Source: Chloroflexota bacterium
Lineage (GTDB): Bacteria > Chloroflexota > UBA11872
DNA length: 64,000 nt
NCBI GenBank assembly: GCA_022826485.1
Contig: JAJDUU010000006.1
Coordinates: 62,001-126,000, forward strand
Reading direction: 5' to 3'
Shown here in pieces: positions 5,978 to 42,361 of the stretch. A program made the translations under genes and the position numbers. A model generated the notes under the pieces. The model saw only the letters and a list, made by a program, of their open reading frames with translations, had not been told where the DNA came from and did not search any database. How positions within the stretch are numbered: position 1 is the first letter of the stretch; each line of letters begins with the position of its first letter.

Positions 5978-6325
5978 CTAGGCGCGCCGCTCCTTGACCC
6001 GGGCGGCGCGACCGATGCGGTCGCGCAGATAGTACAGCTTGGCCCGGCGGACCTTGCCGCGGCGCGTCACCTCGATGTCTCGCACGATTGGCGAGTGCAG
6101 CAGGAACGAGCGCTCCACGCCGAGGCCATGCGTCACGCGCCGCACGGTGAAGTTCTCGTTCACCCCGCCGCCACGACGACGTATCACCGTGCCTTCGAAA
6201 ACCTGCACGCGCTCGTTGTCGCCTTCGCGCACCGTCACGTGCACGCGCACCGTGTCCCCGACCTGGAATTCGGGAACCTCGTCCCGCAGTTGGGCGCGCT
6301 CGAACTCGTCGATCAGGCTTGCCAT
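5978..6325 (-). CDS. rplS: 50S ribosomal protein L19
   Basis: A 115-residue L19 with [36 protein letters not shown] and [19 protein letters not shown], ending in [11 protein letters not shown]. The ATG at 6325 ([14 protein letters not shown]) matches the usual N terminus; the longer open frame adds an atypical leader. It heads rplS-rnhB-yraN on the minus strand, whereas rplS normally follows trmD on the same strand. Confidence 0.96.
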
Positions 6326-6679
6326 GCGATTGCTGCTTGTCGGGACGCCATCTGCCCACTGGGGAGATAGCACAGGAATCCCCTGCGCCCGTTGCAGGCG
6401 CGGGACGCCACCCTACCACAAGGCGGGCGCGCGGCGGTGGAGGGGGCGACGCATGCGTCGCCCGTGCCGGATCGTCACCCCGGCGGAACCCACGCTGCAC
6501 GCAGCGCGGGCCACCGGGCGGAGCCCCCTCATCCCAGCCCTCTCCCTCGAGGGAGAGCGGGCCGGACCGGGCGATGTGGGCGCGCATTGAACAGGAAGCT
6601 CCACCACCTGAATCACGCCGCAATCGCCGGCGGCGTTTCTATACTGATTCATCCATGGCGCTGTGAGCCCGCCTGCTCA
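6326..6679. repeat. gene-free spacer between rplS and vanW-like gene with palindromic repeats
   Basis: This divergent spacer must hold promoters for both flanking operons; I cannot place them confidently. It contains a perfect 20-nt palindrome GGGCGACGCATGCGTCGCCC at 6444-6463, shared with 29.78 kb, and a CTCTCCC/GGGAGAG hairpin at about 6540-6558. No credible small gene is seen. Confidence 0.75.
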
Positions 6680-8569
6680 ATGACCCGTCGCCAGATGCTC
6701 ATCACCACTGCTGCCGGCGGCATCGGCGCGGCCGCTGCCGTCGCCGCGGGTTGGACTTCGTTCGTGGCCGTGCGCGAGGCCAAGCTCGTCAACCAGTTTC
6801 GCCAGGGTGCGGTCGTCGACGGGGAGCCGCTGGCCGGTCTGACGTTCGACGAGGCCGTGGCCCGCGCGCGGGCTCGGTGGGGTCCCTACATCGAGAACCC
6901 CATCGTCCTGCGGCTTGGCGGGCGCGCCTGGACGCCGACCGCCGACGAGATCGGCATTTCGGTGGACTTCATGACGCCCCTGCGCGAAGCCTACGCCTGG
7001 CGTCGCGATGCGGCGCTGAGCGATCAGGTGCTCGGCCGCGCGGCCGGCGGGCCGGGCGCTTACGACGGACACACGGTGGTCGACTTCGATCCCGCGCTGT
7101 TTCAGGCCTACCTGGATCGCATCGCCGCCTCGGTGCATCTCGACCCCGTGGACAGCGTGCTGCGGATCGAGGAGCAGGCCGGCCGCCGCCGACTGGTCGT
7201 CGATCCATCGCGCGAGGGCCGACAGCTCGCACCCGCCGGCTACGCCGAGAGCGTGGCCGGCAATCTGCGGCCGCCGACGCGGCTGGTGGTGGACCTGGCG
7301 TCCGAGGTCATCGCTCCCGCCGTCGTCGAAGATCAGCTCGATCCAATCGCCGCCGATGCCGCCCGCTTGCTCGATGGGGACATCGGGCTAAACACGCCGT
7401 GGGCGAGCTGGAAGGTGGCGCGGGACTCGCTGGTTGCCAATGTCGCGGTCAGCGGGCCTGCCAACGATCCGGACGTCGACATATCGCTGGACTATGCGTC
7501 CTTCGAGTCCCTCGCACGGCAGATCGCGGACCGTCTCCGGGTCGCTCCGGCCGATCCGCGCATCCGCATGAGCGCGTCGGGCGAAGTCGTCCCCCTCGAC
7601 GAGGGCCGCGCGGGCCGGCAGGTCGACGTCGAGCAGCTCTGGTCGCTCGTGCAGGCGGCGTTCGCCAGCGGCGATTCCGCGGTCCAGGTGCCGATCGTCG
7701 TCGTCCGGCCCGACGTCAGCCGCCTCACCGCCAAGGAGTTGCAGTTCGACAACGTCATCGCCGTCGGCGAGTCGATCTTCTGGGGCTCCGAGGACAACCG
7801 GATCCACAACATCGACCATGGCTCGCGGCTCATCGATGGCGCCATCATCCCGCCGGGCGAATCGTTCTCCCTCAACGAGACGGTCGGACCGATCACCGTC
7901 GACAACGGCTTCGTGGAAGGGCTGGTCATCGCGCCCACGCGCACCGAGCCCGGCGTGGGCGGCGGCATCTGCCAGGTTTCAACCACCCTGTTTCGGGCGC
8001 TGTTTTGGGCCGGGCTGCCGATCGATGAGCGCTGGCAGCATGTCTATCGCGTCGGGTACTACGAGCTGGGCGAGGACAGCCCGCCGGGATTCGATGCCGC
8101 GATCTGGCAGCCGCGGCAGGACCTGCGGGCGACGAACGATTCCCCCAACTACCTGCTGATCCGGCGCGAGTTCGATGCGCTGAACCAGATTCTGCGCTTC
8201 AAGATCCTCGGCGCGCCCATCGGGCGGAAGGTCACGCTCGATTCCTCGCGCGGCGACATCGCCGAGCCGCCGCCCCCGGTGGTCGTGGCGAATCCGGAGT
8301 TGGAACCGGGCGAGACGAAGCAAACGGACTCGGCCCGCGTAGGCATGAAGACCGTCATCTACCGCCACGTGGCGATCGGCGATCAAGTGCTGTTCAGGGA
8401 CCAGTTCGCGTCGTTGTTCAGGGCCTGGCCCGAGCGCTGGGAAGTGGGGCCGAACGAGGACGGCTCGCTGGACCTGAGCCAGATTCCGGACCTCGAGGCG
8501 CCGGAGGGCGAGACACCCGACGACGGTGAAGCTCCGGCCGAAAACGGGGATTCGTCCGCCCAGTCCTAG
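6680..8569 (+). CDS. VanW family protein with YoaR-like N-terminal region
   Basis: A 629-residue exported or membrane-anchored protein. The ATG at 6680 gives a short basic head and hydrophobic segment (MLITTAAGGIGAAAAVAAGW). The middle has two peptidoglycan-binding_4/YoaR-like stretches. The VanW core runs from about residue 370: GAIIPPGESFSLNETVGP, then GGGICQVSTTLFRALFWAGL (about residue 427), then the NYLLIRREFD region. The C terminus resembles a G5-like strand domain followed by an acidic tail. VanW proteins are linked to cell-wall functions but have no settled reaction. It lies just upstream of rpsP. Confidence 0.88.
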   Translation: MTRRQMLITTAAGGIGAAAAVAAGWTSFVAVREAKLVNQFRQGAVVDGEPLAGLTFDEAVARARARWGPYIENPIVLRLGGRAWTPTADEIGISVDFMTPLREAYAWRRDAALSDQVLGRAAGGPGAYDGHTVVDFDPALFQAYLDRIAASVHLDPVDSVLRIEEQAGRRRLVVDPSREGRQLAPAGYAESVAGNLRPPTRLVVDLASEVIAPAVVEDQLDPIAADAARLLDGDIGLNTPWASWKVARDSLVANVAVSGPANDPDVDISLDYASFESLARQIADRLRVAPADPRIRMSASGEVVPLDEGRAGRQVDVEQLWSLVQAAFASGDSAVQVPIVVVRPDVSRLTAKELQFDNVIAVGESIFWGSEDNRIHNIDHGSRLIDGAIIPPGESFSLNETVGPITVDNGFVEGLVIAPTRTEPGVGGGICQVSTTLFRALFWAGLPIDERWQHVYRVGYYELGEDSPPGFDAAIWQPRQDLRATNDSPNYLLIRREFDALNQILRFKILGAPIGRKVTLDSSRGDIAEPPPPVVVANPELEPGETKQTDSARVGMKTVIYRHVAIGDQVLFRDQFASLFRAWPERWEVGPNEDGSLDLSQIPDLEAPEGETPDDGEAPAENGDSSAQS

Positions 8570-8650
8570 GCGCCGTGTAGCATAATGGCGGCCGAGGGCA
8601 GCCTTGCGGCTGCTCGATTTGTCTCGCCCCCACGTTTGGAGCACCGTCGT

Positions 8651-8920
8651 ATGTTGCGAATCCGCCTGGCGCGGCTTGGTCGAAGGAACCGCCCGCACTA
8701 TCGCGTGGTGGTCGCCGAACGCCGCTCGGGCCGTGACGGCCGCCGCATCGACGAGCTCGGCCACTACGATCCCCTCACCGAGCCTTCCACCGTTGTGCTG
8801 GACGTTCCTCGCACCGAGGAGTGGATCCGCAAGGGCGCCCAGCCGACCGAGCGCGTGAGCAAGCTGCTGGCGATTGCGCGCGAGGCCGCGGCCGCCGCCC
8901 CGGTCGCCGACGGCGAGTAG
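8651..8920 (+). CDS. rpsP: 30S ribosomal protein S16
   Basis: An 89-residue S16 beginning MLRIRLARLGRRNRPHYRVVVAERRSGRDGR, with ELGHYDPL and TEEWIRKGAQPTERVSKLL. The ATG at 8651 gives the standard N terminus. It leads the plus-strand group rpsP-khpA-trmD-groEL-like, with 6 nt to the next gene. Confidence 0.96.
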   Translation: MLRIRLARLGRRNRPHYRVVVAERRSGRDGRRIDELGHYDPLTEPSTVVLDVPRTEEWIRKGAQPTERVSKLLAIAREAAAAAPVADGE

Positions 8921-8926
8921 GCCCCG

Positions 8927-9163
8927 GTGGACGAGCTGATTGAGTTCATCGGCAGAAATCTGGCCACGGTGCCGGACGAGGTTCGCGTGGAGCGCTTTCG
9001 GCGTCACCACCTGCACGTCTACAAGCTGTTCGTGGACCCGCAGGACATGGGCCGGGTGATCGGGCGACAGGGCCGCGTGGCGATCGCGATCCGGGCGGTG
9101 ATGCAGGCGGCGCCCATCAGCCAGGGCCGCCGGCTGGCGCTCGACATCCAGGAGGCCAGCTAG
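8927..9163 (+). CDS. khpA: KH-domain RNA-binding protein (KhpA/YlqC)
   Basis: A 78-residue single KH domain with the GxxG loop in RVIGRQGRVAIAIRAVM. KhpA proteins bind RNA and, in Firmicutes, affect cell elongation and division. Starts at a GTG 6 nt after rpsP. In most genomes rimM follows; here the next 124 nt before trmD contain no rimM. Confidence 0.92.
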   Translation: MDELIEFIGRNLATVPDEVRVERFRRHHLHVYKLFVDPQDMGRVIGRQGRVAIAIRAVMQAAPISQGRRLALDIQEAS

Positions 9164-9287
9164 GCGTCAGCGTCCGGAGCGGCCGCGACGCCGGACGGTG
9201 AGGGCCACGGTAGGCTCGTCGCGGCGCACCTGGTTCCCGGCGTACGCTTGACCGGCCGCGACTTAGCCGCAGAGTCGGAGGGCGCGC

Positions 9288-10040
9288 GTGCGCGTTGACG
9301 TCGTCACCATCTTTCCCGGCATGGTCGAACCCGTCCTGGCGCAAAGCCTGCTGGGCAAGGCGCGCGAGCGCGGGCTGATCGACGTGCAGGTGCACGACCT
9401 GCGGCGCTGGGCGGACCCGCCGCAGCGACAGGTGGACGACTACTCCTATGGCGGCGGGCCCGGCATGCTGATGAAGCCCGAGCCGATCGTGCGCGCCGTC
9501 GAGGAGCTGCGCACGGCGGATTCCTGGACCGTGCTGCTCTCGCCGCAGGCCCGGCCCCTCACGCAGCCGGGCGTGCGGCGACTGGCCGAGCGGCCACACC
9601 TCATCCTCGTCTGCGGACGCTACGAGGGCGTCGACGACAGGGTGCGCGACCTGGTCGTCGATGAGGAAGTCAGCATCGGCGACTACGTCGTTGCCGGCGG
9701 CGAGGTGCCGGCCCTGGTGCTCATCGAGGCAACCTCGCGGCTGATTCCGGGCGTCGTCGGGTGCGATGACTCGGTACGGGACGAGTCGCACGCCGCGGGT
9801 CTGCTCGAGTACCCGCAATACACCCGGCCGGAGGAGTTCCGCGGACGGCGCGTGCCGGCGACGCTGCTGAGCGGCGACCACGGACGCGTGGCGGACTGGC
9901 GGCGAGCGCAGGCGCTGCGGCGCACCCTCGACCGGCGGCCCGATCTGCTCTCCGAGCGCGGCCTCACGGACGCGCAGCGGTTACTGCTGGCGGAGTTCGA
10001 TCTCGACGGTCCCGACACCGCGAATGAGGCGCGCCCATGA
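9288..10040 (+). CDS. trmD: tRNA (guanine-N1-)-methyltransferase
   Basis: TrmD forms m1G37 in tRNAs. The 250-residue protein has DVVTIFPGMVEPVL, the SPOUT knot residues in LILVCGRYEGVDDRV and SIGDYVVAGGEVPALVLIEA, and the C-terminal ESHAAGLLEYPQYTRPEEFRG. GTG start at 9288. Its TGA overlaps the ATG of the GroEL-like gene (ATGA at 10037-10040), implying translational coupling. Confidence 0.95.
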   Translation: MRVDVVTIFPGMVEPVLAQSLLGKARERGLIDVQVHDLRRWADPPQRQVDDYSYGGGPGMLMKPEPIVRAVEELRTADSWTVLLSPQARPLTQPGVRRLAERPHLILVCGRYEGVDDRVRDLVVDEEVSIGDYVVAGGEVPALVLIEATSRLIPGVVGCDDSVRDESHAAGLLEYPQYTRPEEFRGRRVPATLLSGDHGRVADWRRAQALRRTLDRRPDLLSERGLTDAQRLLLAEFDLDGPDTANEARP

Positions 10041-11683
10041 GCGACGTCGCGATCCTGCACGACATCGAGGCGCGGCTGGCGCTCACGGCTGGGGTCGACA
10101 TCGTCGCCAACGCCGTCAAGTGCACCATGGGTCCGAGCGGGCGCAACGTGGCCTACCGGGGGCAGCTTGGCCCGCCCAAGATCACGCATGACGGGGTGTC
10201 CGTGGCGCGGGACATCCAGCTGCGCAACGGGTTTCTGCAAACGGGCGCGGCGATCGTGACGGAGGCTTGCCGCCTCACCAACACCGCCGCCGGCGACGGC
10301 ACCACGACGGCCGCCGTGCTGACGCAAGCGCTCACGCACGAAGCCCAGCGGCTGGTGGCCGCGGGCGCGGACCCGATGCGCCTGCGGCGCGGCCTGGCGG
10401 CTGCCGTCCTGCGCGTCGACCGGGCCGTGCGCGAGCAGGCCAGGCCCATCACCACTCTGCGCGAGACGGCTTGGGTGGCCGGGCTCGCGGCCCACGATGC
10501 GGGCCTTGGGGAGATCATTGCCGGCATCTTCGACCGCTATGGGCCGGAGGCGGCGGTGACCGTCGAGCTGGGCCGAGGGCTCAGCACCGAGGCGCGCACC
10601 GTGGAGGGGATGCGCCTGGAGCGCGGGCTTGCGTCGCTCCAACTGGCGACGGCGGCCACCGGCAGGCGCGCCGAGCTGGAAGACTGCGACGTGCTCGTCA
10701 CCGACCGCGAGCTCGAGGGCGTGGGGCCGCTCCTGCCGTTTCTGGAGGCCTATGTCTCTGGTGGCGGGCAGCGCCTGCTCGTGGTGGCCAAAACCGTCGG
10801 CGGCGAGGCCCTGGCCACGCTCGTGGAAAACCACCGTCTCGGGCGAATGTCGGTCATCGCCGTGCGCGCGCCGGTGTTTGGCGAGCGCCAGCGCGCCATG
10901 CTCGAAGACCTTGCGATCTTCACCGGCGCCTCGCTGGTCGCGCACGAGTCGGGGGATCCCTGGGGATCGGTGCCCGTGAGCGTCCTCGGGCGGGCCGCCC
11001 GGGTTCGCAGCGATGCCCGTGAAACCCTGGTCATGGGAGGCGCGGGCGAGCCGGCGGCCATTGCCGAGCGCACCGAGTTGCTGTGGGTCTACCGCGACCG
11101 CGCCAAGAACCAGTTCGACCGGGAAAAGCTGGAAGAACGCATTCGCAACCTCTCCGGCGCGGTTTCGGAGATTCACGTGGCGGCGCCGACGGATGCCGAG
11201 CGCGAGGAAGCGCGGCAGCGTGTCGAGGATGCCGTGGCCGCGACCCGCGCGGCGCTGGATGAAGGGATCGTGGCCGGCGGCGGCGTGGCGCTGGCCCGCG
11301 CCGCGGTTGGCCTGACCGCACCGCCCGACGCGCACCGGGATGAGGCCGACGGTTGGCGAGTGGTCCAGCGCGCCCTGGCGGCTCCCGTGGCGACGATCGC
11401 CCGCAACGCGGGCTACGACGGCGCGGTCGTGGCCGACGCCGTGGCAACCGGCGATCCACCGCGGGCCTTCGACGTCACCTCCGGCGCCTACGTCGATCCG
11501 CTGGACGCCGGCATCGTCGATCCCGTCGCGGTGGTGCGCGCCGCGCTGCGCTATGCGGCGAGCGCGGCGATCATGATCATCACCTCGAACACGGTCGTGG
11601 CCGACGCCGAGTCCTACGGTCCGTGGGTGCGCGGGCTGCGACGCCGGCTCGCGCGCGACGCCGGCATCATGCTGGACGGCTGA
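10037..11683 (+). CDS. divergent GroEL-like chaperonin (HSP60 paralogue)
   Basis: A 548-residue type I chaperonin. ATP-site landmarks are kept: TMGPSGRNV, HDGVSVARDI (Asp52 equivalent), AGDGTTTAAVL (Asp87) and RVEDAVAATRAALDEGIVAGGG (Asp398). The apical substrate-binding segment is altered: the usual GYxSPYF reads GLASLQLATA, so its aromatic residues are gone. The Gly-Met tail is absent and no groES adjoins. It overlaps trmD by 4 nt. It may be a specialised paralogue rather than the housekeeping GroEL, which should be elsewhere. It converges with panB. Confidence 0.88.
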   Translation: MSDVAILHDIEARLALTAGVDIVANAVKCTMGPSGRNVAYRGQLGPPKITHDGVSVARDIQLRNGFLQTGAAIVTEACRLTNTAAGDGTTTAAVLTQALTHEAQRLVAAGADPMRLRRGLAAAVLRVDRAVREQARPITTLRETAWVAGLAAHDAGLGEIIAGIFDRYGPEAAVTVELGRGLSTEARTVEGMRLERGLASLQLATAATGRRAELEDCDVLVTDRELEGVGPLLPFLEAYVSGGGQRLLVVAKTVGGEALATLVENHRLGRMSVIAVRAPVFGERQRAMLEDLAIFTGASLVAHESGDPWGSVPVSVLGRAARVRSDARETLVMGGAGEPAAIAERTELLWVYRDRAKNQFDREKLEERIRNLSGAVSEIHVAAPTDAEREEARQRVEDAVAATRAALDEGIVAGGGVALARAAVGLTAPPDAHRDEADGWRVVQRALAAPVATIARNAGYDGAVVADAVATGDPPRAFDVTSGAYVDPLDAGIVDPVAVVRAALRYAASAAIMIITSNTVVADAESYGPWVRGLRRRLARDAGIMLDG

Positions 11684-11689
11684 TCCGGC

Positions 11690-12544
11690 CTAATCGAACG
11701 ACAGGCGGTCGATCACCCCGCGGCGGATCTTGAACCCGTGCTCGGCGCTCGGGAACGTCCCCTCGGTGACCTCGTCGCGGTACTGCGTCAGCGCGTCCCG
11801 CGTGGCGCCGGCCAGGTCGGCGTAGCGGTGCGTGTGGCGCGGCGGCGGTCGGAAGGCAAGCCCCAGCAGATCGTGCAGCACCTGAATCTGACCGTCGCAG
11901 TTCGGTCCGGCGCCTATGCCGATGGTCGGAATCGCGAGGTGCTCGGTCACCACCGACGCCAGCCGCGCCGGCACGGCCTCCAGCACCACGGCGAACGCGC
12001 CGGCGGCCTCCTGGGCGCGGGCGCCGTCCACCACGCGCTGCGCACTCTCGAGATTGACGCCCTGCGCCACGTAGCCGCCCGTGGCGAGCACGGACTGCGG
12101 GGTGAGCCCCACGTGCGCCATCACCGGGATACCCCGGGACGTCAACCCCTCCGTGATGGCGGCGACCTCGGCCCCGCCCTCGATCTTGACGGCGGCCACG
12201 CCCCCATCGCGCACCAGCCGGGCGGCATTGTGCAGCGCATCGTCCAGCGTGGCGTAGGACATGAACGGCAGATCGCCGATCACAAGCGGTGCGGCAATGG
12301 CGCGGGTGACTGCGGCGGCGTGGTGCACGATATCGTCGACGGTCACGTGCAATTCACGCGAGTGGCCCAATACGTTCGGTCCCAGGCTGTCGCCGACCAG
12401 AATGCCGTCGACCCCGGCGGCTTCGGCGAGCCGCGCAAAGGGGGCGTCGTATGCCGTCACGCACACGAGCGGCACGCCGCCCTTGCGCGCTCGGAAGCCG
12501 CTGGCGGTCAGCGGCGCGTCACTCGAATCTGCCTGGTGCGCCAT
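11690..12544 (-). CDS. panB: 3-methyl-2-oxobutanoate hydroxymethyltransferase
   Basis: PanB adds a hydroxymethyl group from methylene-THF to alpha-ketoisovalerate in pantothenate synthesis. The 284-residue TIM-barrel protein shows VCVTAYDAPFARLAEAAGVDGILVGDS, GDLPFMSYAT, AVKIEGG, MAHVGLTPQSV and TIGIGAGPNCDGQ. The ATG at 12544 is chosen because the longer frame adds 75 atypical residues and overlaps the next gene. Pantothenate feeds the phosphopantetheine arm needed by the PKS, but the distance makes a direct link speculative. Confidence 0.94.
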   Translation of the reverse strand: MAHQADSSDAPLTASGFRARKGGVPLVCVTAYDAPFARLAEAAGVDGILVGDSLGPNVLGHSRELHVTVDDIVHHAAAVTRAIAAPLVIGDLPFMSYATLDDALHNAARLVRDGGVAAVKIEGGAEVAAITEGLTSRGIPVMAHVGLTPQSVLATGGYVAQGVNLESAQRVVDGARAQEAAGAFAVVLEAVPARLASVVTEHLAIPTIGIGAGPNCDGQIQVLHDLLGLAFRPPPRHTHRYADLAGATRDALTQYRDEVTEGTFPSAEHGFKIRRGVIDRLSFD

Positions 12545-12579
12545 GTGGCGATGGTACGCCCTCGGCAGGGCCGCGGTCG

Positions 12580-12990
12580 CTAGTAGGCGTACCGCTCCTC
12601 GCGCGACCAGTCCACCGGCGCGAAGCTTGGCCTGGTCGGCATGCGCGTCAGAAGCTCGGGGTCGAGGTCGGATTCGTCGTAGAGGCCGCGGATCTGATTG
12701 GAGGGCAGGTTGAACTCGCGCGTCATTTCCTCGTAGAACGACTCGATGGCCTTGTAGCGATGGAACCACTCCACCGGGTCGTCGAACGCGTCGCAGTTGT
12801 CGGCGAAGTAGAGGACGATGTCCCGCACGCTCACGTCGACGGGAGTGGTGCGCCGGGGCAGACAGGTGCGGAAGTCGTCAATCCACCGGATCTGGCGTCG
12901 CACGTCGCGCGCGGGCAGGCGTCGCCGGCGGCTGAGCTGCTCCGCATACCATGTGAGGGCGGTCCTAAAACTCGTGCACTCCGCTGCCAT
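12580..12990 (-). CDS. hypothetical protein, resembles a recombinase N-terminal SAM-like domain
   Basis: A 136-residue protein from ATG 12990. The helical pattern (FRTALTWYAEQLSRRRRL, VRRQIRWIDDFRTCLP, SVRDIVLYFADN) loosely recalls the core-binding SAM-like domain of tyrosine recombinases, but the catalytic domain (R..HxxR..Y) is missing. It could be a decayed integrase fragment or an unrelated small helical protein. The gap to panB is about 35 nt on the same strand. Confidence 0.5.
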   Translation of the reverse strand: MAAECTSFRTALTWYAEQLSRRRRLPARDVRRQIRWIDDFRTCLPRRTTPVDVSVRDIVLYFADNCDAFDDPVEWFHRYKAIESFYEEMTREFNLPSNQIRGLYDESDLDPELLTRMPTRPSFAPVDWSREERYAY

Positions 12991-13447
12991 CGACTGCCTC
13001 CCCCTGACAACTTGTGCCCGTGTACCCTGTCCGGCCCGACTGCCCACATAAAGACAATCGCCCATCCACAATGGATGGGCGACGGCGGTGCCTTATTCGT
13101 AGCGGTCGGAGTGACGGACCACGAGCGAGCCTCCCCAAGCCCGAAAATGCAGCAACGTTACGGCCGAGGCCGTACGCTCGTCTCACTGTAAGACTTGATA
13201 CGTGAATGTCAATAGTTCACCTTAGAGAAACGTCTTGGATGGCGACATCCTGTGGCTGGTATCGGATCGGCTGGAGAATTATGCAGGCTCAAAAGCTGAC
13301 AAACCGTTCGACCGATGTCCGCCGTCGAGCCAATCGGTCCCGTGTGTTTCAGATAGGCGTCGCGCGACTTGTCATAAGCATTTGTCGTGACAGCCCGGTC
13401 GAGTTGCCCGCGCCGGGCGGTCTTCCGCGGTCGGTGGGCGCCGCGCC
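12991..13447. other. gene-free spacer with a strong hairpin, divergent promoter region of murD
   Basis: About 450 nt separate the hypothetical gene from murD; GC content drops in the middle. A 10-bp stem TCGCCCATCC/GGATGGGCGA with a 5-nt loop sits at 13058-13082, without a T-run. A second short hairpin, TACGGCC/GGCCGTA, follows at about 13159-13174. No credible coding frame is seen. Confidence 0.6.
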
Positions 13448-17752: not shown

Positions 17753-18108
17753 GGGGATGCCGGGTTTCGACAGAAGTCCGAGGTCCGCTGCTGCAGGTCG
17801 AGCATGCCGTCACGCTCGAAAAAAAGGCGGCAAACCTAGTAACTGGCGAGCAAGAAGCGCTCCCACTCGCGGCCTAAGCGCCGTGACGTCTGCCCGGCTC
17901 GTGCCTAGCGGGTCGGAACAGGCGCCAACACCCTAGGCTGCGCCGGCAGAGGCGTCCGCATATGCCGGCTAAGACACGCGGACTGGTCGGATTGCCCGCG
18001 GCCGAACGGTGGGCAAGCCGGCGAGAAACATAGCGATCGGCTATGCCTGTAGACGCGGCGGGGTGACGGCATCTGGACGGGGCGTTCGACTCGCCCCCAT
18101 CTCCACCA
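17753..18108 (+). ncRNA. ssrA: tmRNA (transfer-messenger RNA)
   Basis: A complete one-piece tmRNA of about 356 nt. The 5' end GGGGATGCCGGGTTTCGACAG is the classical tmRNA start. The 3' end ...GGGGCGTTCGACTCGCCCC, CATCTCCACCA closes a 7-bp acceptor stem with it (one G-U pair) and encodes CCA. The tag frame at 17827-17877 reads AANLVTGEQEALPLAA then TAA, ending in the hydrophobic A-L-x-L-A-A degron type. It rescues stalled ribosomes together with SmpB, encoded immediately upstream. Confidence 0.96.
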
Positions 18109-42285: not shown

Positions 42286-42361
42286 GGGAGCGTACCTCGA
42301 TTAGTTGGAGCGCCACGTTGAAATCGTGGAGGCCAGAGGTTCAAGTCACCTCGCGCCCACC
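42286..42361 (+). pseudogene. degenerate tRNA-Val copy
   Basis: This 74-nt body matches the tRNA-Val at 40971 at all but about 11 positions, plus 11 identical nt just upstream. Damage includes a broken acceptor pair (position 4 A opposite G), a lost D-stem pair (GCTC to CCTC), an extra T-stem mismatch, and CCT instead of CCA. The anticodon has become GAA, but stem damage argues against a working tRNA-Phe. Confidence 0.82.

Follow-up and report, generated by a model that had tools for sequence, protein, structure and literature searches.

The groEL-A gene, which overlaps the end of trmD in the window (the whole stretch of Chloroflexota DNA that was analysed, 64,000 nucleotides), encodes an old GroEL paralogue under purifying selection, probably an additional, lineage-specific chaperonin with a more limited range of client proteins than the housekeeping copy has. 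Stand-alone groEL paralogues are already known; what is less usual is the place of this one beside trmD, together with the order-wide occurrence of divergent copies alongside one groES.

The groEL-A gene and its product

The features of the locus are as follows.

8651..8920, forward strand: rpsP, ribosomal protein S16 (TIGR00002, 104.8 bits)
8927..9163, forward strand: gene of a small KH-type protein, read as an ORF and kept beside rpsP and trmD in relatives; we take it to be YlqC-like
9288..10040, forward strand: trmD (NCBIfam PRK00026.1, 298.3 bits, cut-off 220; TIGR00088.1, 276.7 bits, cut-off 195)
10026..10029, forward strand: GAGG, Shine-Dalgarno-like, inside trmD and 7 nt before the groEL-A start; the same GAGG in 6/6 genus genomes
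10037..10040, forward strand: ATGA, the groEL-A start overlapping the trmD stop, read directly; (A/G)TGA in 6/6 genus genomes
10037..11683, forward strand: groEL-A (GroEL paralogue A), 548 aa (Cpn60_TCP1, 183 bits; own clade, 100/99)
10628..10645, forward strand: remodelled underlying segment LASLQL, aligned with E. coli YLSPYF (199-204)
10826..10828, forward strand: Glu at the V264 position, helix I; E in 6/6 of the genus
11690..12769, reverse strand: panB, convergent neighbour of groEL-A (PF02548, 317 bits)

The groEL-A reading frame runs from an ATG start to a TGA stop. Its product matches the Pfam family Cpn60_TCP1 well beyond the cut-off of 34.3 bits and solved GroELs far above chance (phmmer E ~1e-115). 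It resembles E. coli GroEL in fold, domain order and ATP-site residues, at ~41% identity, and differs from it in lacking a groES neighbour and a GGM tail and in the replacement of Y199, Y203, F204, V264, M267, R268 and R452. The ATP-site residues T30, G32, D52, D87, T89-T91, D398 and D495 (E. coli numbering throughout) are kept in 6/6 genus copies, as are G414-G416 in the window's product; the earlier note, which had called the ATPase aspartates intact, was correct for D52, D87 and D398. It was equally correct that the Gly-Met tail is missing, no Gly-Met repeat following the last strand. A Pfam scan found no added domain. By domain, fold and ATP-site residues the product belongs to the type I chaperonins, its ring, ATPase and folding activity being predicted. 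A structure model built on six sequences (mean pLDDT 78) has the GroEL fold, with GroEL 1mnf as the top Foldseek match (E 1e-45), and is of low confidence at 197-209 and 264-267, that is, at the altered segments, so the shape of the groove cannot be read from it; the structure prediction proposed earlier supports the fold and is unsure exactly where the apical domain has changed. The R452 site is A, E or M in the alignment of the clade, a hint that the protein might be single-ringed, though inter-ring contacts vary.

Against the canonical-GroEL equivalog model TIGR02348 (cut-off 582.1) the window copy scores 486.4 and a sister-genus copy (L066) 560.9, both below it, and a sister-family copy (L088) 634.8, above it. 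The closest relatives in named records are three MAGs labelled Chloroflexota or Chloroflexi, at 89-93% identity; isolate names of the RHO3_bin_74 and COS3_bin_17 type among the relatives would, at a guess, denote sponge hosts.

Linkage to trmD and regulation

The linkage of groEL-A to trmD is as old as the groEL-A clade and predates the family. In the window's genus the two genes overlap by 4 nt in 6/6 genomes. Among the 13 genomes of the sister genus the gap is ~100 nt in one and ~1.6-1.75 kb in 11, with a divergent NfeD gene inside the gap in the loci inspected (L066, L067, L073, L077); in the remaining genome (G018) the stretch examined around groEL-A contains no trmD, which is found on that contig at a distance of ~0.83 Mb. 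The sister family has trmD and groEL-A collinear and 125-192 nt apart in three genomes (G019, G020, G023); in a fourth (G021) trmD is followed by a groEL where the contig stops, and neither trmD nor an A-type copy was found in G022. Three further families of the class were represented by six trmD loci; none of these has a groEL within 1.5 kb, and the ORF after trmD is, by eye, rplS in four of them (L159, L164, L175, L176); in the window rplS lies apart from trmD, at 5978-6373 on the reverse strand. Thus the conserved linkage that the earlier note asked to be checked does exist and predates the family, whereas the 4-nt overlap belongs to one genus. Part of the linkage is plain shared gene order, since an ORF for a 163-aa protein (12583-13071, reverse strand, no Pfam match) is conserved near groEL-A in 21/22 loci of both families.

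The cluster around groEL-A, rpsP-KH-trmD, is a ribosomal-protein/tRNA-methyltransferase operon; it had been described as an RNA-modification operon, which holds for trmD and omits its ribosomal side. There is no rimM between the KH gene and trmD (9164-9287), and PF01782 detects none in 6/6 genus genomes or in G023, the gene being present in 7/14 genomes searched. Loss of rimM was rejected as the cause of the trmD-groEL-A linkage, since rimM is present in G019 and G020, where the two genes are linked. Elsewhere in the window, Rfam matches mark a tmRNA (144 bits, 17753-18108) and a weak tRNA (35 bits, 42286-42359), both missed by ARAGORN.

The overlap and the GAGG ahead of it suggest that groEL-A would be translationally coupled to trmD in the window's genus. 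Overlap and GAGG are both conserved there (6/6), and the reach of the coupling proposed earlier ends with the genus, to which the overlap is limited. Control by the trmD operon, which had been read from the overlap, is not an essential feature of the paralogue, given that most of the sister genus is gapped and one genome has no trmD nearby. All loci of the set were searched for CIRCE elements at up to 4 mismatches, with an assumed consensus; at this setting 1.07 Mb of sequence shuffled by single bases yielded 4 matches. In G018 CIRCE is found at copies C and B and at the groES-linked copy E (the copies are listed below), and none at A within 4 mismatches; in G020 it is found at C, weakly at E, and not at A. 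In the window's genus no chaperonin gene carries CIRCE, the one 4-mismatch match (L103) lying downstream of the gene, so its absence at A there is uninformative. In the last 100 bases upstream of groEL-A, two sister-genus loci (L066 and L077) have, by eye, a promoter-like TTGTCG...GACAAT, followed by a G+C-rich hairpin and T residues ahead of the start, possibly an attenuator.

Five chaperonins with one groES

The genome, 96% complete, holds five Cpn60 genes and one groES.

Copy A: groEL-A of the window
Copy B: C17:181432; TIGR02348 706, above 582.1
Copy C, canonical: contig C20, ending GGGMGGMDF; TIGR02348 779.0, above 582.1
Copy D: contig C18, with a long GM tail; TIGR02348 659, above 582.1
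Copy E: contig C6 (L010, 4540-6264, reverse strand), adjoining the sole groES; TIGR02348 484, below 582.1

The earlier note's observation that no groES lies nearby is borne out, the sole groES found being on contig C6, and the possibility that A is the only groEL in the genome is rejected by the five genes. Copy E is linked to groES and falls below the equivalog cut-off, so in this genome groES has a non-canonical chaperonin gene as its partner. Given that the canonical C also lies apart from groES, and that E is divergent and has no GGM tail here, the lack of a neighbouring groES and of the tail is weak evidence about A. The pattern is shared by relatives: groES has exactly one match in 35/35 class genomes searched, and at least three chaperonin matches (E <= 1e-70) occur in 32/35. 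In a sample of 121 genomes of the phylum, at least three matches were found in 15/15 class members vs 13/106 others (Fisher 7e-12, a value overstated because the 15 are close relatives, in counts that gene fragments can inflate). Here, then, is an order of Chloroflexota in which as many as five divergent GroELs run on a single GroES.

A first tree (FastTree) took in 111 sequences. For a more careful one (IQ-TREE) 46 were kept, the other groups being thinned to representatives and the six modules of the fused genes described below and of their single neighbours, and the four divergent copies of families f3 and f4, being omitted for their long branches. In the IQ-TREE tree the A copies of the family and of the sister family form one clade (100/99); B is its likely sister (86/70, unstarred), and A, B and E group together (88/98, unstarred). 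Membership of A in the housekeeping group was rejected, A and C as one clade failing the AU test (p = 0.011), and A and E as one clade was not rejected (p 0.27). The phylogeny and the five genes with one groES uphold the earlier description of a divergent GroEL-like paralogue. Orthologs of A occur in 19/19 family genomes; in the sister family 0/5 genomes matched at E <= 1e-125, and the three full-length copies there (G019, G020, G023) were assigned by the tree. R350W and L295F mark the clade, in 22/22 A copies vs 0/83 other sequences, a set from which the fused modules and the two single genes beside them were omitted.

A is changing more rapidly than C. Between the two genera, identity averages 0.52 for A, 0.71 for B, 0.85 for C and 0.57 for E, and dN/dS within the genus, from our own Nei-Gojobori script, is 0.125 for A, 0.048 for B, 0.056 for C, 0.085 for D and 0.145 for E. 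Part of the change in A may be relaxation, since its dN/dS is above that of B, C and D. A decaying copy is not favoured, given this dN/dS and the retention of A throughout the family.

The apical region and the function of groEL-A

In E. coli GroEL, cryo-EM shows V264, Y203 and most strongly R268 in contact with non-native Rubisco (PMC10723157; this and the papers below are cited for the excerpts on which we draw). All three are replaced in 19/19 family A copies: Y203 by Q/H, V264 by E/T/A/Q and R268 by L/V/A. At Y199, Y203, F204, V264 and R268, the canonical hydrophobic groove, the window's genus has L/F, Q, L, E and L/V. The SPYF motif (201-204) reported lost is SLQL in the window copy, and the altered client-contact residues of the apical domain are fixed in the family. 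The three sister-family copies keep Y203 and R268 and have L or I at 264; as they are trmD-linked, the apical change came after trmD linkage. This gives an ordered natural series, with the groove intact and the gene linked in the sister family, the groove changed in the family, and trmD overlapped in the genus, on which one could test what happens to the clients of a chaperonin once its gene has been duplicated, and whether such a protein can become bound up with the translation machinery.

Remodelling specific to the groove was tested and is not significant: 5/10 binding vs 39/92 other conserved apical positions are changed in the genus (p 0.45), and 7/10 vs 39/92 in the sister genus (p 0.09). 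Other copies are altered in the groove too (Y203E in D, V264Q/H in E). The genus retains hydrophobic residues at L234, L237, L259 and V263; L234 and L237 are kept in 19/19 family copies, and N265 is kept in A. L234 and L237, together with V264, touch the GroES loop (PMC3514286, in the part cited). Loss of GroES binding, once drawn from the change at V264, was dropped, since the groES-linked E has Q or H there, and GroES may still be used by a copy altered at 264.

What does groEL-A do? We think it fairly likely that it is an ATP-driven chaperonin with altered or narrower clients than the canonical C, made with rpsP and trmD and not by heat shock. Kept vertically in this order as an extra type I chaperonin, the protein would assemble into an ATP-hydrolysing ring and fold or hold a client set narrower than, or different from, that of C. 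Because it keeps L234, L237 and N265, it would probably share the single GroES, if only weakly, and in the genus it would be made in step with S16 and TrmD through translational coupling. Against this reading stand three results: change at the binding positions does not significantly exceed that at the other conserved apical positions, dN/dS is above that of B, C and D, and most sister-genus genomes have the trmD linkage disrupted or relaxed.

The first of these results is also what a redundant, housekeeping-like GroEL would give, one that drifts under relaxed selection and does the job of C less well; the spread of change across all three domains and the higher dN/dS (0.125 vs 0.056 for C) fit it as well. 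Yet A is retained in 19/19 family genomes and in the sister family, its ATP site is intact, R350W and L295F are fixed in 22/22 copies and dN/dS is far below 1, and we regard such a copy as unlikely. We give about the same small weight to A being a subunit of hetero-oligomeric rings with B, C, D or E, with mixed apical surfaces and one GroES. The presence of a single groES, both beside five chaperonin genes here and in 35/35 class genomes, would suit such rings, and chloroplast Cpn60 alpha and beta are reported to form hetero-oligomers (PMC5904260, in the part cited), but the gene of A is at a distance from those of B and C, and their rates differ greatly.

The position in the rpsP-KH-trmD cluster invites two further readings. 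A could serve specifically the freshly synthesised components of the translation apparatus: it would have taken the slot after trmD that rplS occupies elsewhere in the class, would be translated together with S16 and TrmD in a genus that has lost recognisable rimM, and would have had its apical domain remodelled for ribosomal or tRNA-modifying clients; we consider this rather improbable. Least probable is a moonlighting role, for example as an ATP-driven tRNA-modification or ribosome-maturation factor that has lost protein folding, to which the location and the replacement of several client-contact residues would lend themselves. The fold and ATP site are as in GroEL, L234, L237, L259 and V263 are still hydrophobic in the genus, the Pfam scan gave no added domain and the trmD linkage is dispensable in the sister genus; nothing was found that points to the non-chaperone role raised by the earlier note.

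A chaperonin with altered clients, the reading we prefer, has counterparts. Like groEL-A, groEL2 of Myxococcus xanthus DK1622 is a stand-alone paralogue away from a single groES, with a different tail and divergence in the apical and C-terminal regions (PMC5406781 and PMC3578752, in the parts cited), regions that set substrate preference there (PMC3578752). That groEL2 still needs GroES (PMC5406781), so a missing groES linkage should not be read as no GroES use. The excerpts describe two copies in M. xanthus, whereas here there are five, far more divergent, with A linked to rpsP-trmD. Chlamydial GroEL2 and GroEL3 are likewise fast-evolving paralogues without groES, with differences in the binding region, and are differently expressed (PMC1892554, in the part cited); unlike them, A keeps the ATP-site residues, and it is unrelated to them by family model, the NCBIfam exception models giving 130.9 and 148.7 bits vs cut-offs of 600. 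Stand-alone genes are common, making up 834 of 5,658 groEL genes, and at least two copies are present in 884 of 4,861 genomes (PMC5406781, in the part cited); many stand-alone GroELs also lack an operonic groES and the GGM tail. About 30% of genomes have several chaperonins according to a review (PMC5904260, in the part cited), and Chloroflexota is not among the five main phyla that it names. Keyword searches of an open-access library, on GroEL with trmD, on GroEL paralogues of Chloroflexota in sponges and on double-length or tandem chaperonins, returned no paper whose title or abstract deals with this arrangement.

Natural double-length groEL genes occur in two genera of the sister family and may be a stranger by-product of this work than groEL-A itself. 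Single ORFs of 1122 aa (G019, L080 1506-4874, reverse strand) and 1117 aa (G022, L079 3671-7024, reverse strand) each contain two full GroEL modules, one after the other and joined by a linker of ~25 aa, the first module having N for D398 in one and G for D87 in the other. Each is divergently paired with a further GroEL-like gene, in G019 on its own (L080 5064-6722, forward strand) and in L079 as part of a forward-strand ORF (6294-8876, GroEL part from ~7250); these neighbours have K or G at the catalytic D398 and are probably dead ATPases. A degenerate ATP site is also seen in divergent GroELs of families f3 and f4 (L122, L123, L126, L129), where position 398 is E, both 89 and 90 are A and, in some, 87 is N.
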